Shown here: positions 41,950 through 56,457 of the stretch, piece after piece
Numbering within the stretch: the stretch's first letter is position 1
Layout of the letters: each line of letters begins with the position of its first letter
Source: Caldicellulosiruptor naganoensis
GTDB lineage: Bacteria > Bacillota > Thermoanaerobacteria > Caldicellulosiruptorales > Caldicellulosiruptoraceae
Direction of reading: 5' to 3'
Assembly (NCBI RefSeq): GCF_026914285.1
Contig: NZ_CP113864.1
Coordinates: forward strand, 1,643,001-1,707,000
DNA: 64,000 nt
Program-made: the position numbers and the translations under genes
The notes under the pieces: generated by a model
Told to the model about the DNA's origin: nothing
Databases searched by the model: none
What the model saw: the letters and a program-made list of their open reading frames with translations, nothing else

Positions 41950-42057
41950 ATGAATAATTCAATACTGGATAACATCGTTCAGGTAGGCATGTACTTGAAA
42001 CAACAGGAAATTTTGGATCGATTTGCAACAAACTTTTTCAAGGAGTTGAAAGAATAA
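41950..42057 (+). CDS. Possible 35-residue ORF coupled to the J-domain gene
   Basis: ATG 41950 opens a frame reading [20 protein letters not shown] and ending [11 protein letters not shown], stopping at 42057, where TAATG overlaps the next start by one base. The peptide is amphipathic and coding-like, but no clear ribosome site precedes it. The ribosome site of the next gene (AAGGAG) lies inside it, so it could be a coupling leader or the remnant of a longer gene. The region 41708-41949 shows no other gene. Confidence 0.4.
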
Positions 42058-43127
42058 TGAGAGACCCATATGAGGTTTTGGGTGTGCAAAAGGGTGCTTC
42101 AAAGGAAGAAATTAAAAGGGCATATTTTGAACTTGTTAAAAAGTACCATCCGGATAAGTTCAAAGATAATCCTTTAAGGGAGCTTGCAGAAGAAAAATTA
42201 AAAGAAATAAATGAAGCATATAATATCCTTACCAACAATCAATATTCAAACAATAAATACTCTACATACGAGGAAACCTCTCTCTATCATCAAGTAAGAG
42301 AATTAATTATGCAGGATAATATATCTCAGGCCGAAATTTTGCTAAATCAGAATCCTCGAAATGACGCAGAATGGTTCTATTTAATGGGTATTATATATCA
42401 AAAAAGAGGATGGATAAATCAAGCATATCGATACTTTATCGAAGCGTATAATCGTGACCCTGGTAACTATGAATACAGGCGTTCAAAAGAGCAATTTGAA
42501 ATATCTTTAAGAAACTATAAATGGTCAGCGTACAAAATGAAAGCCAAAAAGATATTTCTGTATAGTCTACACATTTTGAAAAATCACTTTCTAACAACAG
42601 TCATATTTTTAGCGTTTATGTACTTATATTTCTCCCTCTTTAGAGGAATAACCTCCCAGCTCATAAGTGGCATAGTTATCTGCCTGCTTTATTTGTACGG
42701 TAATTTTTCAAGCGGCAGATTCCATGCAAAAAAAAGAGATGCATTGTCTTTTTTGGAAGGTGTCTTAGCTGTAGCTATTGCTTCACTTCCCACAATTATT
42801 TTAACTATATTAGCAACAAATTATGTATCTCTGAACGATAAGGGTTTTTTAAACTCTCACTGGGCAAATGTGGCATTCAGACTTTGGAACTCCCCTTTTA
42901 TTGGAGTGTATTCATATGCAGATGAGATTGCAAAAGCTGAGCATTCAGTCAACGTTATAATAATAACTTACTGGATAACCACATTGTTTTTACCAGTTTC
43001 CTCCTGGACAGGCTATTTAATCGGAGTGCTGGAAAAGAAAGAATTAATAAAGCTACCTGAATATATTTTTCTACCTAAAAAGAAAGGCCAGAATAAAAAG
43101 CAAGGCAAAACCGGGAAATCCTATTAA
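42057..43127 (+). CDS. Membrane J-domain (DnaJ-like) protein with TPR-like region
   Basis: A 356-residue protein. The J domain is at residues 3-60 ([23 protein letters not shown] at 31-33). Residues 80-155 are helical with a TPR-like repeat ([20 protein letters not shown], then [15 protein letters not shown]). Four or five membrane helices follow from about residue 175. It probably recruits DnaK to a membrane task; the partner is unknown. Its 3' end overlaps bofA by 57 bases in convergent orientation. Confidence 0.82.
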
Positions 43128-43253
43128 TGTACCAACTGCAAGGTTTACAATGTTAAACCCAATGTGAAGTCCGTATGGTTCAAATAAGAAATTAAAAAGC
43201 ACAATAAAACAGCAAGTGAACAAAAATCTAATTAGAAAATCCAATATTTTCAT
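43071..43253 (-). CDS. bofA: Short BofA-like protein (pro-sigma-K processing inhibitor)
   Basis: A 60-residue membrane protein with two hydrophobic segments and the family end [21 protein letters not shown]. BofA in Bacillus is about 87 residues with an extra N-terminal helix, lacking here; a stop upstream in frame rules out extension. The gene belongs after yaaL in the recR-yaaL-bofA operon, but the IS1182 copy lies between, starting 69 bases upstream of its ATG, so expression is probably altered. No close ribosome site is seen. Confidence 0.75.
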
Positions 43254-43321
43254 CTTGCAATTTAATATCTTCCTTAAGAAATAGTTTCTTTAATCTATTT
43301 TATGTAAAACCAAAAATAAAA

Positions 43322-45122
43322 AGAGGCTGTCTAAAAAGATGAGGTGACAGCCTCTTTATTTTTACTGTATTTACATTGTGAGATATTTATGATATAATAT
43401 CTCAGAAATGATTACATAAGGAGGATTAATATGCCACGCAAACATGATAAAATAGTCTTCAAAGAATATAACCCCAACCAATTAATAATGCCAATCGACC
43501 CTGAAGCCTTTATCCCTCAAACTCATCTAGTAAGAGCAATCGATAAAATCATTGATAAAATAGATATCTCAACCATAGTAGAGAAATACAAAGGTGGTGG
43601 GACTTCCAGCTACCATCCTTTGATGCTTTTGAAAGTACTTATCTATGCTTACATACAGGGGATATACTCTTCAAGAAAGATAGCAAAAGCACTTCAAGAG
43701 AATATAACCTTTATGTGGCTTTCAAAACTTCAAACCCCTGATTTCAGAACTATCAATAGATTCAGAAAAGAGATAATAGGTGATTGCATTGAAGAGATTT
43801 TCGCACAAGTTATTGAACTTCTTGTAAAACTGGGGTATGTAAACTTTGAGTATTACTACCTTGACGGGACAAAGATTGAAGCAAATGCGAACAAGTATAC
43901 ATTTGTATGGGCAAGAAGTACAAGAACATACAAAAAGAAATTAAGAGAAAAAGTAAGAGAAATTCTTAATGAAATAGAGAGGATAAATGAGGAAGAAGAC
44001 AGAATTCTTGGCGAGTTGGATGTCAATTTAGAAGCTGATTATGATAGCCAAGAGCTTGAACAAAAAGTTGAAGAACTCTCCCAAAAGATAGCAGAAGCTA
44101 ACTTTGGGAGCAAAAGGAAAGAAAGGAGAGTGAAAAAGCTTGTAAAAACTCTCCAAAACAACTGCGTATTAAGACTCAAGAAATATGAGTCTTATGAGCA
44201 GATCTTAAATGGCAGGAATAGTTTTTCAAAAACAGACAATGATGCCACATTTATGAGGATGAAGGATGACCATATGAAAAATGGGATGCTAAAACCCGGG
44301 TATAATGTACAAATCGGCACACAGAACCGATTTGTCATAGGTTTTAGCATCCACCAAAGTCCCACAGACACTGTCTGTCTAAAGGAACACCTTGAGCTTG
44401 TGACGAAGATAACAGGTTTCATGCCAAAGAACATTGTAGCAGACAGTGGCTATGGGTCTGAAGAAAACTACCTTCATCTGAAAGAATGTGGCATAAATAG
44501 CTACATTAAGTATAGCACATTTGACTTGGAACAGACAAGAAGATTTAAGAAGGATATTTTCAATGTAAGGAACTGGGAGTACATAGCTGAAGAAGATGCA
44601 TATATTTGTCCTGCTGGTAAGAAGGTGAAATACTTATATCCGAAGATAAGTGCAAATGAGAGAGGATTTGTAAGTTATGAGAAGGTATATCAATGTGAAG
44701 ATATTTGTAATGGTTGTGAACACAGAGAAAAATGTTATAAAGGTAAGAGATGGAAGAAGAGATTTAGTATAAGACCGAGGTTAGAGAAATTGAAGGAAGA
44801 GGTGAGGCAAAGGCTGTTAAGTAGAGAAGGCGAAGAGATTTACGAAAAAAGGAAGATAGAAGTTGAGACAGTATTTGGGATAATAAAGAACAATAAAGGG
44901 TTTAGGAGATTCCTGCTCAGGGGTATGAAGGGTGTGAAGCTAAAGTAGAGTTTGGTTTGTATTGCCTATAACATAGAAAGATTGGCGAAGATAATAATAG
45001 GGGGTTGGGGCAAAATTGCCAGCCAACCCTCTTGCTTTTTACTGCATAGTTCAATATTAACATTAAATACCATCAAATGCTTGATTTTGGTTATTAAAAA
45101 TTATTGTTTTTGGACAGCCTCT
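43322..45122 (+). mobile_element. IS1182-type insertion sequence, copy 2
   Basis: About 1.8 kb with intact ends: AGAGGCTGTC at 43322 and GACAGCCTCT at 45113-45122. The left end folds with GACAGCCTCT at 43346-43355 into a terminator-like hairpin followed by TTATTTTT. The promoter TTTACA, 17 bases, TATAAT is at 43370-43398. It sits between yaaL and bofA and forms the last codons of yaaL. Differs from copy 1 at only a handful of bases, so one is a recent copy of the other. Confidence 0.92.
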
Positions 45123-45128
45123 TTTTTA
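43431..45128 (+). pseudogene. IS1182-type transposase with nonsense codon
   Basis: Identical to the copy 1 transposase through the DDE domain except GFMPKN for GHKPKN and one Asn-to-Ser change. At 44946-44948 a TAG replaces the TGG of copy 1 (KLK-stop versus KLEWGLVCIAYN), removing about 60 C-terminal residues; the frame beyond remains open. All three catalytic acids are upstream, but the conserved last helices of the fold are lost, so activity is doubtful. Confidence 0.85.
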
Positions 45129-45360
45129 GGAGCTTATACAAGTAGTTTAGCCACTTCTCAGCAAGTATCTGTTGATAGATGGCAATCTCAATCAAATCTT
45201 GGTCTGAAGAGTAGTTAAAAAGAGTATTTGCGCCTTCTAAAAGTCCTTTTACGTATTTGAGTAAGTACTCATAATCCTTTTCTTTTCGGTTTTTAATCTG
45301 CAAAAGCAACTCTACATCAGATACTTGGTTTGAGATAATGCTTAAAACTTCCATATTCAT
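45094..45360 (-). CDS. YaaL-like (DUF2508) small protein, end rewritten by IS
   Basis: An 88-residue helical protein following recR, in the position of yaaL in Bacillus. DLIEIAIYQQILAEKWLNYLYKLL is the family-like C-terminal half. The last dozen residues (KKRLSKNNNF) are encoded by the right end of the IS, so the natural terminus was replaced. Function unknown. Confidence 0.72.
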   Translation of the reverse strand: MNMEVLSIISNQVSDVELLLQIKNRKEKDYEYLLKYVKGLLEGANTLFNYSSDQDLIEIAIYQQILAEKWLNYLYKLLKKRLSKNNNF

Positions 45361-45425
45361 CTTTTAAACTGCCTAAGAAATATTTCTTTTATATATTATG
45401 CACCAATATTTGCTTTGATATAACA

Positions 45426-46022
45426 CTAAATCTCTTTTCTTCCTTCAATTGCTTTGAGAATTGTTACCTCATCTGCATATTCAATATCGCCGCCAACCGG
45501 AATTCCGCGGGCAATCCTTGTTACTTTAATGCCCATTGGCTTTATAAGCCTTGCTAAATATGAGGCTGTTGCTTCACCGTCCACATCCGGGTTTGTAGCA
45601 ATAATTACTTCTTTAACCGTTGTGTCCGCAAGCCTTTTTAGAAGAACATCAATTGTCAACTGTTCAGGATACTTGCCTTTGAGTGGTGATATTGCACCAT
45701 GCAGTACATGGTAAAGTCCTTTGTATTCCTTTACCTTCTCAAGCGCCACAACGTCCTGGGGTTCTTCAACAACACAGATTATGCTCCTGTCTCTTTTATC
45801 ATCACTGCATATATGACAAATATCTCCTTCTGTGAAGTTACAGCATATCCTGCAAAGCTTTGTACTATTCTTGGCACTTAAGATTGCTTCAGCAAGTGCT
45901 TTGACATCTTCGCTTTTCATGTTAATGATATAAAAGGCAAGCCTCTGGGCAGTTTTCTGACCAATCCCAGGTAGCTTTTCAAGCTGCTGGATAAGTTTTG
46001 ATATAGCATTTTCTTTTTGCAT
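45426..46022 (-). CDS. recR: Recombination protein RecR
   Basis: A 198-residue protein acting with RecF/RecO to load RecA at gaps. Helix-hairpin-helix [19 protein letters not shown], zinc finger [16 protein letters not shown], Toprim domain [14 protein letters not shown] and [15 protein letters not shown]. Directly after ybaB, as in most bacteria. Confidence 0.96.
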
Positions 46023-46039
46023 ACTTTATCAACCTCATC

Positions 46040-46381
46040 TTAAAAAAGACCTGGAAGCCCCAAACCTGTAATCTTTTGCATCTCTTCTTCTATCATCTTT
46101 TCAACTTTTCTGATTGCCTCATTTACACAGGCAACAATCAAATCTTGAAGTGTTTCTATGTCATCTGGGTCAACAACCTCTGGTGAAATTTCAATGCTTT
46201 TAATTTCCTTTTTGCCATTTATAACAACCTTCACAGCACCGCCGCCAGCAGTAACTTCAAGTTCTCTCTGGTTAAGTTCCTCTTGCAGCTTTTCAATCTC
46301 CTCTTGCATTTTTTTTGCCTGTTTTTGAAGCTGATTTATGTTAAACCCGCTACCAAATCCTGGAAACTTGGTTTTTGCCAT
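46040..46381 (-). CDS. YbaB/EbfC nucleoid-associated protein
   Basis: A 113-residue DNA-binding dimer protein. MQEEIEKLQEELNQRELEV, then AGGGAVKVVINGKKEIKSIEI and VDPDDIETLQDLIVACVNEA, are characteristic. Usually sits between dnaX and recR; here sbcC takes the dnaX place. Confidence 0.94.
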   Translation of the reverse strand: MAKTKFPGFGSGFNINQLQKQAKKMQEEIEKLQEELNQRELEVTAGGGAVKVVINGKKEIKSIEISPEVVDPDDIETLQDLIVACVNEAIRKVEKMIEEEMQKITGLGLPGLF

Positions 46382-46421
46382 ATTCTTTTACCTCCTCATT
46401 TTTGCTGTGAATACTCATATA

Positions 46422-48995
46422 TTATACAACAAAAATTTTAGATCCTTCCATATCTTTTTTTACAACTATTCTCTGGTCAAATGCATCCATCAAGTCCTCA
46501 ATGTGGGTTATTACAAGTATCGTGTCAAATTGGTCTTTGATTTGATTCAAACACTCTATTATATGGTCTTTTCCTTCTTCGTCCTGTGAGCCAAAACCTT
46601 CGTCCAAGATAAGCATTCTAATTGAAGCACCTGCCCTTTTTAAAAGCACCTTTGCAAGAGCTATTCTGATTGCAAAGTTGATTCTGAAAAGCTCACCACC
46701 TGAAAAAAGTTCATAGTTTCTTGTACCGTTTATATCTGAAATCTCTATTTGAAGTGTCTCTATTGTTTTACCAGAAGCTGTCTCCTTTTGGGTTTTAAAG
46801 TCAATTGAAAAAGCACCGTTTGTCAAAAGTTTCAAAAGCCTGTTTGCCTCATCTCTGATAAGTGGCAGGGTGTTGGCAATTATCTCATTTTTTATTCCAT
46901 CAGGACCAGTTATGTCAATGATGATGTCATAAACTTCTATTTCTCTTTTTATGTCCTCCATCTCTTTCTCAAGTGCAATTACCTTTTCCTTTGCTTGTTT
47001 TGCTTGTTCAAGCTTTTGCTCAAAAATGCCTATTTCTTTTAGAACAGAAGTTAAGTCTTCCTGAAGATTTTTGATCTTGCTCTCATAGGTATTTATATTT
47101 GACTGAATTTCCTTGAGGTTTTCTTCTGGCGAATCAGAAACCATCTGCAAAAGCTGTTCGTCTATTTCTTGGATTTTTTTGACAAGCTGTTGAGCTTCAT
47201 TTTGATACTCAAGGAGGTTGTTTTTAAGATTCTCTGCTTTAACTTTGCTTATCTCTATCTCTTTTAAAAGGCGTGAATACACTTCAAGTTCTTTTACTCT
47301 TTTAGAAACACGGCTGTAATTTACCCCATCAAAGTTCAGTCTATTAAGTTCATTTTTCAAATCTTGAAGCTTTTTCTCAAGTTTTGATATCTCATCATCA
47401 CAAAGATTTATCCTCTGTTGGCTTTCTGAAATTGAGTTTCGCAAGTTCTCTATGTTCTTGTTCTTCTGGTCTATCTTTGCTTTTAAGTTTTCAAAAAGCC
47501 CATGAAGTTTCTTTTCTTTTGAACGCAAAGCATCTTCCTGTTTAACTTTTTCTTCGAGTTGTTGATATTCTTTTTTGAGGTTTGATAATTTTGCACTTAG
47601 CACTTCTTTCTTTTCTTTATACTCTTTACCTTGAGTTGCTATTTCTTTTTTAATATGTTCCTTTTCCTCATCACCCTTTATCTCTCGCAGACATACAGGA
47701 CATTTCCCTTTATTTGACTCAATTAATCTGTAACTTGTTGCAAGTTCTTTGAGCTTGCTCTCAAACACCTCTAAAACCTTTTCAATCTTTGTAATCTCTT
47801 CTTTTTTTGTATCTAACTGGCACTTCAGCTTTTTTACTTTTTCAAGCTCTTTTTCAACACTTGAAATTTCCATCTCCAAGTGTTTCAGTTCCTGCTGGTA
47901 TTTAGAAAGTTCCGCAGCCTCATTGGTAATCTTAGTATTATATTCTTCTATAGACTTTTCAAATATCTTTTTTTGTTCTTCTTTGCTGTTTTTCTCTTTT
48001 TCAACAAGTGCTATATTATTTTTAAGTGATATATATGTTTCGTAATCTTTTTGAAGACATTCTAAAGTAGATTTTAGTTGCTCATACTCCTTAGCTTTTG
48101 AAGTTATTTCAGGTTCGTTTTTAAGATCATCTTCTATTTTTAAAAGATCACTTTGCGTATTTTCAATCCTTTTTTTGATCTCATTTAGCTTTTTCACATA
48201 CTCATCCTTCTCTTCCCTTTTCCTTCTGATATCTTTGAGTTTTTGCTCTGTTTGGTACTTCTGATCCACAAGATTATTCAGCTCATTTTTTAGAGTGTCT
48301 AACTCGTTTGCAATCTTTTTTGATTTTTCCTCAAGACCTATAATAGCCCTTTTGATATTCTCTTCTTCAGAAGCAATCTTTATATTTTCTTCATTTTCCT
48401 TGATTTTAATGTCAAGCAATACCTTCTTTTCTTTTCTCTTTTCTTTTGCAAGCTCGTTTATTTGGTCGTATATGCTAAGGTTTAAGATTTTAGCCAAAAT
48501 CTCACGCCTGTCTTCTGGAGAAGACAATAAAAAGTCTTCTGTTCGTTTCTGAGAAAGGTATGCAGAGTGCAAAAACACGTTAAAGTCAATTCCTAAAATC
48601 TTCTCAAGCCTATTTTGTGTCTGGGTGTAGTTTGCCTCAGTAATGGGAATGAGCACATCGTTTTTCTTCATAAAAAGAGAAAGATATTTTTTTCCTCTTC
48701 TGTCAAGTCTTCTAACAACTCTGTATATTACACCATCTATCTCGAACTCAAACTCAACTTGCATGTAATCTTTATGTGCGTTTATATATTCTGTCTCCGA
48801 GATCTTTCCACGTTTGCCAGTTTGAAGCCTTTCAAACTCGCCAAAAAGCGCCCATGCAATCGCCTCTGCAATAGAGGATTTTCCATTGCCGTTTTTACCT
48901 ACAATGCACGCAACTTTTATATTATTAAAATCTATCTGGTTTTGACTTTCTCCATAAGACTTGAAATTCTCAATTTTCAAAAAAAGCGGTCTCAA
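46422..48995 (-). CDS. sbcC: SbcC (Rad50-type) ATPase
   Basis: An 857-residue SMC-like ATPase. Walker A is GKNGNGKSSIAEAIAWAL near residue 34; two long coiled coils flank the zinc-hook motif CPVC near residue 432; the C-terminal head has FSGGELFRINFAIRIAL and Walker B MLILDEGFGSQDEEGKD. With SbcD it opens and trims DNA ends and hairpins. Its start lies 20 bases after sbcD. Confidence 0.95.
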   Translation of the reverse strand: MRPLFLKIENFKSYGESQNQIDFNNIKVACIVGKNGNGKSSIAEAIAWALFGEFERLQTGKRGKISETEYINAHKDYMQVEFEFEIDGVIYRVVRRLDRRGKKYLSLFMKKNDVLIPITEANYTQTQNRLEKILGIDFNVFLHSAYLSQKRTEDFLLSSPEDRREILAKILNLSIYDQINELAKEKRKEKKVLLDIKIKENEENIKIASEEENIKRAIIGLEEKSKKIANELDTLKNELNNLVDQKYQTEQKLKDIRRKREEKDEYVKKLNEIKKRIENTQSDLLKIEDDLKNEPEITSKAKEYEQLKSTLECLQKDYETYISLKNNIALVEKEKNSKEEQKKIFEKSIEEYNTKITNEAAELSKYQQELKHLEMEISSVEKELEKVKKLKCQLDTKKEEITKIEKVLEVFESKLKELATSYRLIESNKGKCPVCLREIKGDEEKEHIKKEIATQGKEYKEKKEVLSAKLSNLKKEYQQLEEKVKQEDALRSKEKKLHGLFENLKAKIDQKNKNIENLRNSISESQQRINLCDDEISKLEKKLQDLKNELNRLNFDGVNYSRVSKRVKELEVYSRLLKEIEISKVKAENLKNNLLEYQNEAQQLVKKIQEIDEQLLQMVSDSPEENLKEIQSNINTYESKIKNLQEDLTSVLKEIGIFEQKLEQAKQAKEKVIALEKEMEDIKREIEVYDIIIDITGPDGIKNEIIANTLPLIRDEANRLLKLLTNGAFSIDFKTQKETASGKTIETLQIEISDINGTRNYELFSGGELFRINFAIRIALAKVLLKRAGASIRMLILDEGFGSQDEEGKDHIIECLNQIKDQFDTILVITHIEDLMDAFDQRIVVKKDMEGSKIFVV

Positions 48996-49015
48996 TTCTT
49001 TAAACCTCCACCTTT

Positions 49016-50272
49016 TTAGATTTTTTTCACTTCTTCTAACAAGGCCTTGAAAGTTGTAACAATGTCATTCTTGTTCTTTATATCTTTATACTTTGGACTT
49101 GCAGACAAGAATCTTTCAAACGCAAAAACAGGGTCTGATTTTTCATCAACGTCAGCAATTCTAAAATCCCTTTTGACATCTGTCACTTCTATTTCAATTG
49201 GAGCTAAAATGAAACAGATATCTTTCAAATATTTTTCTACCTTGTTCAAATCAAGCCTTTCTTTTAACAAGCTCTGTGTTTTTATTGTAAGTTTCAAAAT
49301 CGATGCTTTTACATTGCCCGAATTTTCTTCTAAACTCTTTATTTTTCTATCTATTTCTGAAAAGAGTGTTTCATTCACATCACCGTCTGCTTCAAACAAA
49401 TCAATTATAATCTGATAAAATGGTCTGACAAGAACCGGCTGAAATCCAAACCAAAAATTGTTTTTGTCTATTTCAAACACCACAAACCCCTTTTGGTCCT
49501 GTGCTTCTGAAAAGTCTATCCTGTCAGGTGATCCACAGTACACAACTGCTGGGCTTTCAGAGTGCAAAACCTGTGGCTTGTGAATGTGCCCAAGTGCAAC
49601 AAACTTGAGTTTTGGATTCAAAAGTACAGAAAGTGGCACTTTCACATCTTTTCCTATCATAATCATTCTTTCACTGCCAACTTCAGCTTCATTAACTGCA
49701 AAATGTCCTGCCAAGATTGTTGGTATATCATCTTCACAGGAACCTAAAACCTCTGCCAATTTCTCTTCGAAAAAATTGGCTATGTTTTGTTCAAGCTGTT
49801 CAATCTTTTCAGGAATTGTTTTATCTATAAACCTTTCAAGGTAAAGGTATGGCACAGCTATAACCCTTACCTTTTCTCCTTTTATATCAAATACTCTTGT
49901 TTCAAAAAAGCTATCCATTACCACAATATTCTCTTGATCAAATATCTCAAAAACCTTGACTGTATGATGCCTTGCTTCAAATGGATGCATGTCATGATTT
50001 CCAGGTACTATTATTACCAATACCCCTTCTTTTGCAATCTCAACAACCCTTTTGTAAAACATATTTCTCAAGGTAGAGTTTGGCTCCCTGTCTTTGAAAA
50101 TATCACCTGTAATTAGTAAAAGATCTATATTCTCTTTTCTTATATAGTCCAAAATCCTATCAAATGTTCTGAAAAAATCATGGACACGTGAACCAAGCCC
50201 ATCTGGAGTTTCTTTGCTGTATGTTGTCACACCGAAATGAAGGTCTGCTGTGTGAACACCTTTTATAGGCAT
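49016..50272 (-). CDS. sbcD: SbcD (Mre11-type) nuclease
   Basis: A 418-residue metallophosphoesterase-type nuclease. Metal-binding motifs are in order HTADLHFG, ITGDIFKDREPN, VPGNHDMHPFEARHH, LAGHFAVNE and ALGHIHKPQVL. The C-terminal 120 residues provide the SbcC-binding region. Partner of SbcC and likely of the NurA-HerA pair just upstream. Confidence 0.95.
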   Translation of the reverse strand: MPIKGVHTADLHFGVTTYSKETPDGLGSRVHDFFRTFDRILDYIRKENIDLLLITGDIFKDREPNSTLRNMFYKRVVEIAKEGVLVIIVPGNHDMHPFEARHHTVKVFEIFDQENIVVMDSFFETRVFDIKGEKVRVIAVPYLYLERFIDKTIPEKIEQLEQNIANFFEEKLAEVLGSCEDDIPTILAGHFAVNEAEVGSERMIMIGKDVKVPLSVLLNPKLKFVALGHIHKPQVLHSESPAVVYCGSPDRIDFSEAQDQKGFVVFEIDKNNFWFGFQPVLVRPFYQIIIDLFEADGDVNETLFSEIDRKIKSLEENSGNVKASILKLTIKTQSLLKERLDLNKVEKYLKDICFILAPIEIEVTDVKRDFRIADVDEKSDPVFAFERFLSASPKYKDIKNKNDIVTTFKALLEEVKKI

Positions 50273-50296
50273 TTATATTCCACCCTTTATAAAATT

Positions 50297-51964
50297 TTAA
50301 TATTCCATCTCTTTCAAAAACTCATCTGCAGCTTCCAGTGTTTTTTTGTAATTTTCTTCAACATCACTCTTTGGAGTGTAGAGGGAAACAAAATCATAAA
50401 AGCTCTGGTCATACCCTTTTGTTTTTATTGCAATTGGCATTGGAACCGCATGACCAATTACAAGTGCCTGTTGCTTTGAATCAAGAGACTCAATGATACC
50501 CCGAAGCTGCTTGCTATTTTTCATGCCGGCAAGCGCACTTGCAATATCTGCCTCATCAGAAAGCGCTAAAATCACCCTTGTGCCTATTTGCGAGGCAATC
50601 TCACTGTCTATCTGCGAGGGGCGTTGGTCTATGCACATAAGACTTACCTTTGCCTTTCTCATCTCTCTTGCTATTGTTCCAAATATTGTCTGTTTTGCAA
50701 CATCTGGTGATAAAAACCTGTGCGCTTCTTCTATGGCAATCACAAGTGGTCTTGGTGCTGGATATTTTTTTCTGTTTGATATGTGTTTTTCATACATCTC
50801 CATGTACTTGTTATATATTCGTCTTGAAAGCACATTTGTGACAAACAGGTAATTAAGTAGCTTGTCTCCCTTGCCAAAGGTTATGTCAACGCTAATTCCT
50901 CTTTGAAGGTAATCTAAGATTATATCGATAGAATTTGTACCCGCGCTTCTGTCATACTTAAGATAAGGAAGTTCTTTTAGTACAGAAAGTTTTCTTATAA
51001 GCGCTAAAAGTGAACTTCTGTTTACAACCGCTTCTACATCTTTAAACTCTTCAGCAAGATCCTCGCCATTTACTAAGATTTCCTGAAGCCAATGTCTTCC
51101 TTGGGCTTCTAACCTGTTTTTGAGCGCAATCATCACTTGTTCAGCTGTTTCATTTAAGTTTAGTTCCTCTGAGATTGACAAGATGTCCTCAACCTCAACA
51201 TCTCTCACATCAATTTCTATAGGAAGGACTCCTGCTCTGGTTGCGCTACTTGGCTCAATAGTCATTATCTGAACTTTATTTCCAAAAAGACTCTTTAACC
51301 CTTTTACTTGATGATTTTCCTCATCAACACTATCCGGGCCATGGTCTGAGTGCGCGTCAAATATCAGCAAAGAAGCTTTGTCAGAAAGAACAATTCCTGC
51401 CATTATAAGCCTTGCAATAAATGACTTTCCTGTACCTGTTCGACCGTAAATACCGCTACTTCTTTCAATAAACCTGTCAATGTCAATACACACCTGTGTA
51501 CTTTCATCCATGTCAAGCACGCTTCCGATTGGGAAAAAGCGCTTTGGGTCTTTTTCAAAACTCCCAAACACATCTTGGATATCATCATATGTTGCCTTTC
51601 TCACACTTGATGCATGAAGAGGAATGTTTCTTATTGGCTGGTTTTTGCCCTCTTGCAGGTCAAATGCAAGCACAGGCTGGGCTTTGAATATTGTGTAAAT
51701 TGAAGTTCCTCTCGTGATTCTGTTTAATAGCGAAAAACTGCTTCCCCTTGGAAGCTCAGCTAACGACTGCTTGTTCATTCCTTCAATGACCATGTCAGTG
51801 AGCATACAGTAGTACTTTTTCTTTTCCGTCTGGCTAACCAAGATACTACCTATCCTTGTATCTTCCACAGCAGAATCATCTTCTACCTTTATTGCAAGCC
51901 CTTCTAAAAATGACCCGCCTATGATTTTGCCAATTCTTTGCTGTTTATAAAAATTTTCTTGCAT
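50297..51964 (-). CDS. herA: HerA-type hexameric DNA translocase
   Basis: A 555-residue HerA/FtsK-fold ATPase. The N-terminal HAS-like barrel (IGKIIGGSFLEGLAIKV, residues 10-100) precedes Walker A GRTGTGKSFIARL near residue 170, Walker B LVIAIEEAHRFL near residue 410, and CIDQRPSQIDSEIASQIGTR, the arginine-finger region. In archaea HerA works with NurA nuclease and Mre11-Rad50 in DNA-end resection. ATG 51964 follows AAAGGGTGGG; GTG 51973 is part of that site. Confidence 0.9.
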   Translation of the reverse strand: MQENFYKQQRIGKIIGGSFLEGLAIKVEDDSAVEDTRIGSILVSQTEKKKYYCMLTDMVIEGMNKQSLAELPRGSSFSLLNRITRGTSIYTIFKAQPVLAFDLQEGKNQPIRNIPLHASSVRKATYDDIQDVFGSFEKDPKRFFPIGSVLDMDESTQVCIDIDRFIERSSGIYGRTGTGKSFIARLIMAGIVLSDKASLLIFDAHSDHGPDSVDEENHQVKGLKSLFGNKVQIMTIEPSSATRAGVLPIEIDVRDVEVEDILSISEELNLNETAEQVMIALKNRLEAQGRHWLQEILVNGEDLAEEFKDVEAVVNRSSLLALIRKLSVLKELPYLKYDRSAGTNSIDIILDYLQRGISVDITFGKGDKLLNYLFVTNVLSRRIYNKYMEMYEKHISNRKKYPAPRPLVIAIEEAHRFLSPDVAKQTIFGTIAREMRKAKVSLMCIDQRPSQIDSEIASQIGTRVILALSDEADIASALAGMKNSKQLRGIIESLDSKQQALVIGHAVPMPIAIKTKGYDQSFYDFVSLYTPKSDVEENYKKTLEAADEFLKEMEY

Positions 51965-51981
51965 TTTTCCCACCCTTTACA

Positions 51982-52566
51982 TCACAGGTTTGTAATTAGA
52001 TTTTCCAGCCTCTCAATAATAGGTGTGAGAAGGTTCAAATCATATTTAAGATATATATTGAGCTCTTTCCCCATATGTTCTATGTACTCATAGTCTCTAT
52101 CTCTTGCAACATAGGCAAAGTAAAGCATCCACGGAATCACTTCAACAATGTCAACATCCTTTGCTTTTATAACAGAGTTTAAAAATAAGCTACTCTGGGT
52201 TGCCAAAAGTATATCCTTTTTGTCCGCAAATTCAACCATTGTGTGGAGCTTTATGCTCCTGTCTGGAAGGGAATTTATGAATTTATCATTTGCTATAAAG
52301 CCAAGGATTATACACTTAAAGTAGCCCTTTAAAATTTGGTCAAGCTGCGGATAAAATTTTTTAAGCTCCTCAGCTGTTTTCCACAAAGCCCGCGGATACC
52401 CTTCTTGTGATATACTTCCTATGTCATACCTCGTAACACACCCTAAAACTCTATAGCTATCAAGGTCAAATTTTATAAATTGCCCAGCTGTTGGAATATT
52501 GTCAAGGTCTCTTGCTTCACATGTAATTTGAGTAAAGGAAATGTCTATTATCTCTCCAACCGCCAT
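51982..52566 (-). CDS. Small barrel-like protein between nurA and herA
   Basis: A 194-residue protein. The first 50 residues (VGEIIDISFTQITCEARDL, then AGQFIKFDLDSYRVLGCVT) look like the HAS barrel found at the start of HerA; the rest is helical (SLFLNSVIKAKDVDIVEVIP). It lies 19 bases after nurA and 9 before herA, so the three are clearly one unit. It may be an adaptor or regulatory subunit of the NurA-HerA complex; this is inference from fold impression and position. Confidence 0.6.
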   Translation of the reverse strand: MAVGEIIDISFTQITCEARDLDNIPTAGQFIKFDLDSYRVLGCVTRYDIGSISQEGYPRALWKTAEELKKFYPQLDQILKGYFKCIILGFIANDKFINSLPDRSIKLHTMVEFADKKDILLATQSSLFLNSVIKAKDVDIVEVIPWMLYFAYVARDRDYEYIEHMGKELNIYLKYDLNLLTPIIERLENLITNL

Positions 52567-52585
52567 TATCAGAACAACTCCTCAT

Positions 52586-53758
52586 TTAAACTATTCTTTT
52601 CATTTTATTACTTTTCTTTGCAGAATATGGCAAAATATCTTCTCCGAAATCCACAAGCATATTTTCTATGGCCATTTTGTCATGATATGAGATTGTAGAA
52701 AACTCATGAGCATGTGTTAGTGATATAGGATATCCAAATCCAATCTGGCACTGATGGTATATTGCACCAATGCATTTTTTGAGCCAACTTTGGTCTTTTG
52801 CAACATAGAGCGGTATCTCAATTCTCGCAACCTCATAGCCTGTTTGAAGGTAAACAAAGGCAATATCTGTGTCCTCAAACTCATCAAATGCTCTTCCTAA
52901 GGTGTAAAATACATTAGAGTGCTGACCAGTTTTTAGATGTGAAAATAAAAATACATCTCTTATCCTCTCAACCTTTTCGCAATTTCTTTTCTCATAGCTA
53001 CTGCATTCTTTACAGTCAATCCTCATCTTAGCACAGTTATATATCCTGTAAAGATTAGAAATAATAGAGTTTTTTGGCATTGAGATGAAACCACAAACTG
53101 CAATGTTTTTTTGTTTTGCCAAATTAAATATCTTTTCAAGTTCAGGATTTGCCTTTCTGCCAAAGCGCAAACCTTGCCTGTCTTGTGTCCAGTCAATGAG
53201 ATTACCATCATAGAGTACAAGTCTTAAGCTATCCTTAGGCAAAGAATTTTCAACATACTCTAAGATAGCCATATACTCTTTTGCCTGTCTTTCTCTTGAG
53301 ATTTCTGATGAGTTTTTAATTGCCTGAGCTTCTTTTCTTGAGTAAAGTTCTTCATCAAGGTAAATGTAGCCTTGAGTTTTATAGTTAAAATTGCTATTTT
53401 TACTGTCATAAGTAATTTCCACACAGGCAATGTTCAAAAGATAGTAAGGCTGCGAAATATGCCTGTCAATCTCTGTATTGCTGCCATCGACTGCAAACAC
53501 TTCATAACTTGTCTGAACCTCACAAGGAAAACTTCTCATAAACTCATTGAAATTGCTATAGTATGGAAGGCAAAATAGAATTTCGTTTTTCTCATCCTTC
53601 CTTGGAATTTTAGAAAGTACCTTTTCTATTTTTTTATCATCTAATGAGTACAAAAATTCAGAAACTTCATTAATACTTTCTCTTATCTCTCTTTCCTTTT
53701 CCAGTATTCTACTTTTCTTCTCATTTATCTGCTGAACCAAGTTATGAAAATCTAACAT
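52586..53758 (-). CDS. nurA: NurA-domain nuclease with a four-cysteine cluster
   Basis: A 390-residue protein. NurA active-site features: FAVDGSNTEIDRH (Asp91), an acidic/helix region around residues 154-162, RLVLYDGNLI (Asp184), and LTHAHEFSTI (His349/351). An N-terminal coiled coil spans residues 8-35. Residues 242-260 contain C-X6-C-X2-C-X7-C, a likely zinc or Fe-S site not part of the minimal archaeal NurA as I know it. It is the first gene of the operon and has its own sigma-A promoter. Confidence 0.85.
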   Translation of the reverse strand: MLDFHNLVQQINEKKSRILEKEREIRESINEVSEFLYSLDDKKIEKVLSKIPRKDEKNEILFCLPYYSNFNEFMRSFPCEVQTSYEVFAVDGSNTEIDRHISQPYYLLNIACVEITYDSKNSNFNYKTQGYIYLDEELYSRKEAQAIKNSSEISRERQAKEYMAILEYVENSLPKDSLRLVLYDGNLIDWTQDRQGLRFGRKANPELEKIFNLAKQKNIAVCGFISMPKNSIISNLYRIYNCAKMRIDCKECSSYEKRNCEKVERIRDVFLFSHLKTGQHSNVFYTLGRAFDEFEDTDIAFVYLQTGYEVARIEIPLYVAKDQSWLKKCIGAIYHQCQIGFGYPISLTHAHEFSTISYHDKMAIENMLVDFGEDILPYSAKKSNKMKRIV

Positions 53759-53794
53759 TTTCTCACATCCGCTATTAAAAATATGGACAATTAA

Positions 53795-53823
53795 ATTATA
53801 TCATTTCAAACAAAACTTATCAA
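53795..53823 (-). promoter_or_regulatory. Sigma-A promoter of the nurA-herA-sbcDC operon
   Basis: Minus strand TTGATA, 17 bases, TATAAT, about 37 bases before the nurA ATG and just after the ispF stop. All genes to bofA run the same way with short gaps. Confidence 0.82.
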
Positions 53824-53827
53824 ACAT

Positions 53828-54301
53828 TTATTCGTGTAGTAAAACAACAGCAAAGGCGGAAATCCCTTCTTTTCTCCCTTCAAACCCCAAGCCTTCAGTT
53901 GTCTTTCCTTTGATATTCACCTGGTTTTTTTCAATATTCAGTGCACTTGCAATGTTTGTCTTCATCTCATCTGTATATGGAGAAATCTTTGGGCTTTGTG
54001 CAACTATTGTTGTATCTATGTTAATTATACTCATGCCTCTACTTTCCAAAAGCTTTGAAACTTCCTTTAAAAGAGTGATACTCGAGACATCCTTGTATTT
54101 CATATCAGTATCAGGAAACAGCCTTCCAATATCATTTTCACCCATAGCACCAAGGATCGCGTCAATTATTGCGTGAATTAAAACATCTGCATCAGAATGC
54201 CCTAAAAGCCCTTTTTCAAATGGAATCTCAACACCACCCAAGATTAGTTTTCTTCCTTCGACAAATCTGTGAACATCATATCCAATCCCTACTTTAAACA
54301 T
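53828..54301 (-). CDS. ispF: 2-C-methyl-D-erythritol 2,4-cyclodiphosphate synthase
   Basis: A 157-residue isoprenoid (MEP) pathway enzyme forming the cyclic diphosphate with release of CMP. Metal ligands are in GIGYDVHRF (Asp8, His10) and [12 protein letters not shown] (His42); [16 protein letters not shown] is the conserved end. Other MEP genes are not adjacent. Confidence 0.96.
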
Positions 54302-54306
54302 TTGAC

Positions 54307-54606
54307 TTAAACTCTCCTTTCAAATATTACAATTCCTTCTTTTAAGATTTTATTTTTGAATGTTTCGTTTTCTAATTTCTCAAGTTCAACTAAGTCAACC
54401 TTATAAAGCCCTGCAGCTTCATCCAAATCTAATTTAAAACCAGCTGTTGTTTCACCATCTACTACTATTGCAATGTCAATATCCGAATTTATTTTATAAT
54501 CACCTCTTGCTCTTGAACCAAATAATATAGCCTTTTTTATTGTCCTTTCACTTCTGATGAGCTCCATAATTTTCTCAAATATGACATCTTCAATCCCAAA
54601 TTTCAT
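54307..54606 (-). CDS. MntA-type minimal nucleotidyltransferase
   Basis: A 99-residue nucleotidyltransferase with the motif [18 protein letters not shown] (Gly-Ser then two Asp) and a following [17 protein letters not shown] strand. Such proteins pair with HEPN proteins as type VII toxin-antitoxin sets, in which the transferase modifies the HEPN toxin. It lies 4 bases after its partner. Confidence 0.88.
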
Positions 54607-54610
54607 TTAA

Positions 54611-55003
54611 TCAACTCCTCAATTTTTTTTCAAGTTCCTCAAACAAAGGTAAGTAGTCACTTTTTATTCTCTCAAATATTATTTTGGCAACACATTCATC
54701 ATAGGTGTGGACCGTCAAGTTCCTATCTTCAATCATCCTTAGCCATTTTTCTTGATTTTCAATCAAGCCCACTGAAAATGCTTCTTTGAAAACTGCTCTA
54801 GGCGAAGAAATATTTACTATGCCTTGATATTCCAAATACGCCTTCAATAATTTCCAGGCAAGTTCATAGGTAAATTCAAATCTTTGAATAGCACCGTCAT
54901 ACAAAAGAGGATTATCGCTTCTTTCCGACACCGCTTCTTTCAATCTCAAAAGTGCTTTCTGAAAGTTAGCAAATCTTTCTCTAATTTTTTCCAAATCATT
55001 CAT
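54611..55003 (-). CDS. HI0074/HepT-like HEPN protein
   Basis: A 130-residue helical protein of the nucleotidyltransferase-substrate-binding family. FANFQKALLRLKEAVSE, IQRFEFTYELAWKLLKAYLE and MIEDRNLTVHTYDE are typical; the last holds an R-X4-H motif like that of HEPN ribonucleases. Probably the toxin or substrate of the adjacent MntA-type enzyme. Confidence 0.87.
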   Translation of the reverse strand: MNDLEKIRERFANFQKALLRLKEAVSERSDNPLLYDGAIQRFEFTYELAWKLLKAYLEYQGIVNISSPRAVFKEAFSVGLIENQEKWLRMIEDRNLTVHTYDECVAKIIFERIKSDYLPLFEELEKKLRS

Positions 55004-55084
55004 CCTCCATTTTCTTTTTGTTCTTTTACTTTTCGATATTTAAATTATATCACATGAAAAAACCTCTTAGTCTTTCAAAAAAAT

Positions 55085-55114
55085 TTGACATACAAAGAAT
55101 CTTAATGGTATTAT
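55085..55114 (+). promoter_or_regulatory. Promoter of the lysine operon
   Basis: TTGACA, 18 bases, TATTAT, ending about 43 bases before the lysine riboswitch. Confidence 0.75.
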
Positions 55115-55156
55115 TAAATAAATACCACAAGTGAATAGCTCATAATATATTAATAG

Positions 55157-55330
55157 ATAGAGGCGCGTCTTTTAAGAGTAGGCAGGTGGATGTGAAAGAA
55201 GACACAGATGAAACCTGCTGAAAGGAAAAGACGCCGAAGGGAGTTTCTTTCTTCTTGGAAACTTCCCTGGGTGCATGGAGAATATCCATGCAACTGTCAC
55301 CAATTGAAAAATTGGTGGAGCGCTATCTGT
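55157..55330 (+). ncRNA. Lysine riboswitch (L box)
   Basis: Shows the conserved L-box sequences in order: AGAGGCGCG, a helix GGCAGGT/ACCTGC, GCTGAAAGGAAAAGACGCCGAAGGG (abridged here to GAAAGG...GCCGAAGG), a long helix with GGGTGCATGGAG/CCATGCAACTG, CACCAATTG/CAATTGGTG-type stem and closing GGAGCGCTATCTG. It precedes asd-dapA-dapB, the lysine pathway genes, so lysine should switch off the operon. Confidence 0.93.
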
Positions 55331-55394
55331 TAATATATTGTATGCTTGTAGTACAATATATTAACAGAAGCTGGCTCAAAAACCAGCTTTTTTA
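55327..55394 (+). terminator. Expression platform of the lysine riboswitch
   Basis: A long hairpin from CTGTTAATATATTGTA to its complement ending at 55367, followed by AGCTGGctcaaaaaCCAGCT (55369-55388) and TTTTTT. The first stem competes with the riboswitch closing helix; the second is the terminator. Confidence 0.8.
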
Positions 55395-55455
55395 GTTTTA
55401 TTTGATTTTATTCTCAGCTTTAAATTAAAATATTTTTAGAGGAGGTCTATACAAA

Positions 55456-56457
55456 GTGGCAAGAAAAATCAAAATGGCAATAGTCGGCGCAACTGGTATG
55501 GTTGGAAGAACATTTTTGAAGGTGTTAGAAGAGAGAAATCTTCCTGTTGAGGAATATTACCTCTTTGCATCAAGCAGGTCAGCTGGTACAAAGGTTGAGT
55601 TTATGGGAAAGGAATACATTGTTGAAGAGTTAAAAGAAGATTCATTTGACAGAGGAATAGACATTGCTCTTTTCTCAGCCGGTGCATCCACCTCTCTTCA
55701 CTTTGCACCAATTGCAGCTTCCAAAGGCTGCATTGTAATTGACAACTCAAGTGCATGGCGTATGGAAAAAGACGTTCCTTTGGTTGTCCCAGAGGTAAAT
55801 CCAGAGGATATCAAGTGGCATAAGGGAATTATCGCAAATCCAAACTGCTCAACAATTCAGGCAGTTGTTGTTCTAAAGCCTTTGCACGACAAATACAAAA
55901 TAAAGAGAATTGTGTACTCGACATATCAGGCTGTCTCAGGTGCTGGATATCAAGGATATTTAGATTTGGAAGAAGGTTTAAAAGGTGCACCACCAAAAAA
56001 ATTTCCATATCCAATTGCAGGAAATGTAATTCCTCATATTGACGTTTTCTTAGAAAATGGATATACAAAAGAAGAGATGAAGATGATAAATGAAACAAGG
56101 AAGATTTTGCATGATGACTCTATCAAAATTACAGCAACAACCGTAAGGGTACCTGTTTTCAATGGTCATAGTGAGTCCATTAACGTTGAATTTGAAAAAC
56201 AATTTGATTTAGAAGAATTAAAAGAAACTTTAAGACAGGCACCGGGTGTTGTTGTTCAGGACGACCCAGAAAATCTTTTGTACCCAATGCCAATCTATGT
56301 ATCTGGTAAGGATGAAGTGTATGTTGGAAGAATCAGAAGAGATGAATCTGTTGAAAGTGGTGTAAATCTTTGGGTTGTTGCTGACAATATCAGAAAAGGT
56401 GCCGCTACAAATGCTGTTCAGATAGCTGAGAAGGTAATTGAGTATTTCTTTAGTTAA
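55456..56457 (+). CDS. asd: Aspartate-semialdehyde dehydrogenase
   Basis: A 333-residue NADP enzyme making aspartate semialdehyde. AIVGATGMVGRTFLKVLEER binds NADP; catalytic Cys in ANPNCSTIQ near residue 134; STYQAVSGAGYQG and the His in TVRVPVFNGHSES follow. GTG 55456 has GAGGAGG upstream. First gene under the L box. Confidence 0.96.
   Translation: MARKIKMAIVGATGMVGRTFLKVLEERNLPVEEYYLFASSRSAGTKVEFMGKEYIVEELKEDSFDRGIDIALFSAGASTSLHFAPIAASKGCIVIDNSSAWRMEKDVPLVVPEVNPEDIKWHKGIIANPNCSTIQAVVVLKPLHDKYKIKRIVYSTYQAVSGAGYQGYLDLEEGLKGAPPKKFPYPIAGNVIPHIDVFLENGYTKEEMKMINETRKILHDDSIKITATTVRVPVFNGHSESINVEFEKQFDLEELKETLRQAPGVVVQDDPENLLYPMPIYVSGKDEVYVGRIRRDESVESGVNLWVVADNIRKGAATNAVQIAEKVIEYFFS

Follow-up and report, generated by a model that had tools for sequence, protein, structure and literature searches.

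A Conserved nurA–herA–sbcD–sbcC–ybaB–recR Gene Block in Caldicellulosiruptor naganoensis as a Candidate SOS-Inducible DNA-End Resection Operon

The window analysed here, a stretch of 64,000 bases of Caldicellulosiruptor naganoensis DNA (bases 1643001-1707000 of a 2,494,610-base single-contig genome), carries on its minus strand a compact block in which the nuclease gene nurA is followed by a small HAS-barrel gene, the translocase gene herA, sbcD, sbcC, ybaB and recR. The block is retained throughout the family and is preceded by a conserved promoter that overlaps a predicted LexA-type operator. It could be a chromosomal operon for DNA-end resection, probably under SOS induction, the products of which would feed RecR-assisted RecA loading; we regard this reading as moderately probable.

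Gene Content of the Block

The seven genes described in the initial annotation as consecutive on one strand are all open on the minus strand. They are listed below in the order of reading, followed by a small open reading frame (ORF) and the upstream neighbour.

52586-53758, minus strand: nurA, 5′-3′ nuclease; PF09376, 56 bits (cut-off 21)
51982-52566, minus strand: 194-amino-acid HAS-barrel accessory gene, assigned through the PF09378 matches of its relatives
50297-51973, minus strand: herA, hexameric DNA translocase, GTG start; DUF87, 125.8 bits (cut-off 23.2)
49016-50272, minus strand: sbcD (Mre11 homologue); TIGR00619, 116.5 bits (cut-off 77.65)
46422-48995, minus strand: sbcC (Rad50 homologue), TTG start; PF13476 and PF13558 above cut-off
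46040-46381, minus strand: ybaB/ebfC, nucleoid-associated DNA-binding protein; TIGR00103, 96.7 bits (cut-off 49.45)
45426-46022, minus strand: recR, RecA-loading mediator subunit; TIGR00615, 275.4 bits (cut-off 162.55)
45094-45360, minus strand: 88-amino-acid ORF 3′ of recR, function unknown; kept in 13/13 family genomes, no Pfam or NCBIfam match
53828-54301, minus strand: ispF, upstream neighbour outside the proposed operon; PF02542, 233.6 bits

The gaps from nurA to recR are 19, 8, 24, 20, 40 and 17 bases, reaching up to 65 bases when the 88-amino-acid ORF is included, and ispF lies 69 bases from nurA on the same strand. SbcC is the weakest of the assignments: its TIGR00618 match of 226.7 bits is under the model cut-off (478.5) and the PF04423 hook falls just under, while Walker A, the CxxC hook and Walker B were identified by eye. 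The dnaX gene is located far from the block (G000:697158-698222). At locus L048, dnaX is preceded by what we take to be an exoribonuclease-type ORF and followed by one presumably of the DUF362 type.

Conservation of the Block and of Its Five-Gene Core

NurA was searched in the genome of the window and 40 relatives, and was present in 23 of these 41 genomes and in 4 of the 12 genera. The family set consists of 12 members of the genus (the window and 11 others) and G012, from the one further genus by which the family is represented. The order ispF–nurA–HAS-barrel gene–herA–sbcD–sbcC–ybaB–recR–88-amino-acid ORF is kept in all 13 family genomes; therefore, the block could not be a chance assembly, and the gene order reported in the initial annotation is shared by every close relative compared.

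Outside the family, recR was found in 27 genomes, 24 loci of which were examined (G038, G039 and G040 were left out; G035 gave no recR match). The dnaX gene lies upstream of ybaB–recR in 23 of these 24 loci and was not seen in L056; for L055 and L071, the frame recognised as dnaX stops 300-500 bases short of ybaB. Within the family, dnaX was not found directly upstream of ybaB, and its place is taken by sbcC in 13/13 genomes (with an insertion between the two genes in two of them, described below). Comparison of the two sets implies that the sbcC–ybaB junction is a trait of the family and dnaX–ybaB–recR the usual surrounding state, which agrees with the earlier claim that sbcC in place of dnaX before ybaB is unusual.

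A deeper core is shared beyond the family. The 27 NurA-bearing genomes that were read include 13 of the family, nine of genus g4 (which we take to be Thermoanaerobacter), one of genus g7 and four of other families of the phylum, presumably Bacillota. The core nurA–HAS-barrel gene–herA–sbcD–sbcC is present in this order in 26 of them; in the remaining one, G035, the contig ends inside herA. NurA itself is rare in the phylum, as it was found in 16 of 398 genomes drawn evenly from it; this draw added four genomes to the 23 mentioned above. The gene order thus extends past the close relatives, with a different attachment: in g4, the core stands directly behind recA–recX in 9/9 genomes and not before ybaB–recR, and it is followed by rny in all eight genomes whose contig reaches that far. 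At L212, Pfam matches confirm the names RecA, RecX, RNase Y and CinA. The g7 genome, G022, has 2.7 kb between recX and nurA, and in g4, ybaB–recR remains with dnaX in the eight loci seen. The recR neighbour in the family and the recA–recX neighbour in g4 together indicate that the core was joined to different genes of the RecA pathway in two lineages. No recombination gene was recognised beside the core in the four other NurA-bearing families by our own query set and by eye, the contig of L206 ending just before nurA.

Two further observations concern these genomes. In G029 (L210), nurA, sbcD and sbcC each occur in several frames, which could reflect decay or a draft-assembly error. The g4 genome G016 carries a second recA above the curated cut-off (G016:C2:56243-57205) besides the one before nurA.

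The Small HAS-Barrel Gene, HerA and NurA

The 194-amino-acid gene is found between nurA and herA in all 27 NurA-bearing genomes. The window protein gave no Pfam or NCBIfam match, and its assignment comes from relatives: PF09378 (HAS barrel) is above cut-off in three of the five scanned (L042, L206 and L207), just under it in L209 and absent from L208. The label "barrel-like" given to this gene at the outset was therefore right. The N-terminal region of HerA passes the PF09378 cut-off (25.2 bits) in L207 and in the Chloroflexi HerA L084, and stays under it in L042 (25.1 bits), L209 (23.6), L206 (16) and the window protein (12.6); judging from the relatives, the window HerA would also carry an N-terminal HAS barrel. 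Two HAS-barrel proteins per operon are thus observed in relatives, with both proteins passing in L207 and one passing in L042 while the other is 0.1 bit short. Since barrels occur in both proteins, the small gene is not a barrel detached from HerA.

A profile comparison of the 194-amino-acid family with HerA found no match, so the HAS-barrel assignment rests on Pfam. Single-sequence AlphaFold2 prediction of the 194-amino-acid protein gave no usable fold (mean predicted local distance difference test score, pLDDT, 36.9). The HerA model, built with 28 relatives, reached a pLDDT of 63.5, and a fold search with it returned HerA structures at ranks 2-5 with template modeling (TM) scores of 0.39-0.45 by query length, i.e., below 0.5. 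Residues G176, G179-K182 and E414-E415 of HerA are invariant in 10 sequences; the first two groups are presumably Walker A and the last Walker B. Searches of solved-structure profiles with NurA and the 194-amino-acid family yielded nothing useful. At least 80 loci encode a HerA of about 40% identity, mostly cyanobacterial, with three from Chloroflexi and one from a record titled Tatlockia; the NurA profile of the clade found no nurA in their flanks, and among those matches listed, the 194-amino-acid family gave only one short frame (E 0.043).

In Deinococcus, NurA binds the HAS barrel of HerA (PMC9960219). A second HAS barrel encoded beside NurA and HerA would therefore most simply act at the same interface, and docking of the 194-amino-acid protein where the HerA barrel meets NurA is its most likely role by analogy.

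NurA identity among the family genomes drops to 42-43%. Residues D91, E161, D184 and H351 are invariant in eight aligned sequences from six families and also in an alignment of 10, and we take them to be the catalytic positions. The same eight sequences share an invariant four-cysteine cluster (C242, C249, C252 and C260; C-x6-C-x2-C-x7-C in the window protein), which is likely a zinc or iron-sulphur site.

Promoter and Predicted LexA Box

The following two elements precede nurA:

53795-53823, minus strand: sigma-70 type promoter TTGATA-17-TATAAT, found by promoter scan
53821-53834, minus strand: CGAATAAATGTTTG, putative LexA-type operator that covers the ispF stop codon and runs into the -35 element

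Both promoter hexamers and the 17-base spacing are kept in 12/12 genus members, the spacer sequence itself diverging; in G012, the promoter is degenerate (TTGTGA-17-TAAAAT). The 14-base box is identical in all 13 ispF–nurA junctions, that of G012 included.

Conserved dyads were also found before recA (TTCTAAACATATGTTCGAA and variants, 11/11 genus loci fetched) and before lexA (CTAAAC-N4-GTTTGA type, 9/9 genus loci fetched), and lexA is above cut-off in all 13 genomes searched. Box matrices were trained on five distinct recA and three distinct lexA boxes, which are conserved dyads and not experimentally proven sites. With the 14-base matrix, the nurA box ranks second among the 63,987 window positions, and first in 11 and second in two of the 13 loci; a scan of 286,024 positions yields 15 with a score this high, 13 of them nurA boxes. 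None of 500 column-permuted matrices placed the nurA box in the top two of the window, and one placed it in the top 45. LexA of Clostridium thermocellum binds a motif of the B. subtilis type, with recA and lexA among its targets (PMC8457756). The case for LexA control of the nurA promoter through the predicted site could accordingly be considered good but not conclusive.

Several results count against a LexA site here. The 20-base matrix ranks the nurA box only 45th of 63,981 window positions, one half of the site is weak (GAAT instead of GAAC) and departs from the recA and lexA half-sites, and in g4 the 220 bases before recA showed no such box (0/4 loci). A LexA consensus, CGAAYRNRYGTTYG, has two matches in the genome, one of them the nurA box, versus five for its reversed control, and so decides nothing. 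The 14 bases could instead be no more than the end of ispF together with the -35 region, or be bound by a different regulator; we assign this explanation an appreciable but minority probability. It draws on the overlap of the box with the final codon and the stop codon of ispF. The left half of the box could be partly accounted for in this way, the right half not, and the box is kept in G012 although the -35 hexamer there has drifted. The permutation result likewise argues for a LexA-type site.

Proposed Function and Alternative Explanations

The genes themselves, their conserved order, the conserved promoter with its box, and the assignment of the small gene's relatives to the HAS barrel were observed directly, and the following route could be built upon them. 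On DNA damage, RecA filaments would trigger cleavage of LexA, and the nurA promoter would be derepressed. SbcCD could open blocked or hairpin ends, as its relatives do, and the HerA ring would pump duplex DNA into the NurA dimer. NurA would remove the 5′ strand and leave a 3′ single strand, and the HAS-barrel protein may dock where the HAS barrels of HerA meet NurA. RecR, with RecO and RecF encoded elsewhere, could then load RecA on the 3′ strand, and YbaB would presumably bind DNA. Resection by bacterial NurA-HerA is reported in PMC9960219, and the position of the core beside recA–recX in g4 fits resection feeding RecA loading.

A number of observations weigh against the resection operon as proposed, and the first group concerns the unity of the transcript. 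Insertion elements of about 2.2 and 1.9 kb separate sbcC and ybaB in G007 and G011 (2/13); one insert encodes resolvase-like and TnpB-like proteins and the other a 480-amino-acid transposase-like protein (names by eye). Positions 42000-56000 of the window contain 75 promoter-like sites versus 42.4 (standard deviation 6.2) in shuffles, and L034 contains 50 versus 32.1 (standard deviation 5.7). This excess makes internal starts possible, and a same-strand promoter-like site with 11/12 matches lies inside sbcD (49431-49404). A TATAAT at 46421-46426, over the stop codon of sbcC, is identical in nine aligned sbcC–ybaB junctions including that of G012, and may possibly be an internal promoter for ybaB–recR, but it has no good -35 element. 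Two minus-strand terminator-like matches were found in herA (51755-51740) and ybaB (46067-46047). The region contains eight terminator-like matches versus 8.8 expected from shuffles, and the ybaB match, when folded, was no better than shuffles (z 0.56). Short gaps along the block are retained in 11/13 family genomes. Of the earlier description as one operon behind a single clear promoter, the compact same-strand order and the promoter itself were upheld; the unbroken transcript was not, given the insertions, nor was the uniqueness of the promoter, given the number of promoter-like sites.

The second group concerns function. Deinococcus or Thermus strains deleted for nurA or herA showed modest or opposite effects on survival of damage (PMC9960219). 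The hand-over of resection products to RecR is a putative step, and the earlier statement that they may be handed directly to RecR was not supported in that form. The genome of the window also encodes, at 533.7-539.2 kb (L213:3684-9189), an 870-amino-acid UvrD_C protein adjacent to a 958-amino-acid UvrD helicase that also contains a PDDEXK nuclease domain. The pair resembles a short, divergent AddB/AddA, in which only the second subunit has a recognisable PDDEXK nuclease. AddA is above the curated cut-off in 0/12 genus genomes; in G012 and G022, an AddA above the cut-off coexists with NurA. Replacement of a lost AddAB by NurA-HerA, which the 0/12 count had suggested, was rejected for the window's genome, the AddB/AddA-like pair being present there. 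Elsewhere, g4 encodes another divergent AddA of 1073-1127 amino acids, and in g5, which has no NurA, AddA is above cut-off in 10/10 genomes.

The gene order could also have arisen passively: the housekeeping pair ybaB–recR would have moved behind sbcC in the ancestor of the family and gained a convenient promoter, and NurA-HerA-SbcCD would share no more of a pathway with RecR than in other bacteria. Such a history, which we judge rather unlikely, would account for the recR join in one lineage only, for its interruption by insertion elements with recR kept, and for the lack of a recognised recombination gene beside the core in the four other families under the search described above. It fits less well with a join present in both genera of the family, with the short gaps there, and with a second lineage that joined the same core to recA–recX. 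Phage defence by a HerA paired with a nuclease is brought to mind by the PADLOC HerA models, which match HerA with at best 113.4 bits, and by the fold search, which ranks SIR2/HerA defence complexes at the top together with Sulfolobus HerA. Neither NurA nor the 194-amino-acid protein has a PADLOC match or a match in any plasmid record, the locus position is kept in 13/13 genomes, and the partners of herA are NurA, SbcCD, YbaB and RecR, or RecA-RecX, with no defence-type SIR2 or DUF4297 partner beside it; defence is therefore very improbable.

The resection operon remains the preferred reading, and a broader proposal could be attached to it tentatively, at less than even weight. The NurA-bearing bacteria of the phylum would possess a resection machine of five proteins, against four in archaea, with the free-standing HAS barrel as an adaptor, or second collar, placed between HerA and either NurA or SbcCD. 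Damage would induce the machine through LexA in this family, and its RecA-loading partner would be RecR here and RecA-RecX elsewhere. An archaeal-style resection core could thus have been coupled to RecA loading of the bacterial kind. What NurA-HerA does in bacteria is disputed, since the Deinococcus and Thermus knock-outs have weak or opposite phenotypes (PMC9960219); if the proposal is true, the clade would offer a clean place for testing break resection by NurA-HerA for RecA, together with the role of the HAS-barrel gene.

Neighbouring Features

A DDE transposase gene (window 43431-44948) lies between the 88-amino-acid ORF and a DnaJ-like gene and occurs only in this species among the loci compared. 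On the other side, a toxin-antitoxin-like gene pair, read by eye as HEPN/MNT-type, precedes ispF at 54307-55003 and varies among the species of the genus, being full-length, shortened or missing. A lysine riboswitch (55150-55333, 140.6 bits) stands before asd and dapA (gene names by eye).

Comparison with Known Systems

The enzymes of the block are known. The archaeal nurA–herA–mre11–rad50 cluster has been described (PMC2288612 and PMC8708640). The block shares with this operon the same four enzyme families, adjacent on one strand, and, judging from relatives of the window HerA, probably also a HerA with a HAS barrel. Unlike the archaeal operon, it has SbcC and SbcD of the bacterial type by model scores, an extra HAS-barrel gene, joined ybaB–recR and predicted LexA control. 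The description as an archaeal-type module consequently narrows to homology: the best scores of SbcD and SbcC come from TIGR00619 and TIGR00618, models with bacterial names, and NurA and HerA occur in several bacterial phyla (PMC8708640).

Bacterial NurA-HerA is shared with Deinococcus and Thermus, and in Oceanithermus, SbcD-SbcC is also encoded downstream of herA, in the order nurA–herA–sbcD–sbcC (PMC5448004). The text covered on Deinococcus, Thermus and Oceanithermus mentions no HAS-barrel gene and no recR or recA neighbour. The E. coli dnaX–ybaB–recR operon (PMC9610160) has the same succession of ybaB and recR, and differs in having dnaX upstream where sbcC stands here.

Within the literature searched, NurA, HerA and ybaB never occur together, nor do NurA, HerA and Caldicellulosiruptor, and the ybaB–recR join, the recA–recX join, the extra HAS-barrel gene and the SOS box were not found there; the coverage did not extend to Iyer et al. 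2004, the likely source on HAS-barrel operons. A further close counterpart is the g4 block recA–recX–nurA–HAS-barrel gene–herA–sbcD–sbcC–rny, which has the same five-gene core in the same order. There, the core is attached to recA–recX, and in the family of the window, it is attached to ybaB–recR.

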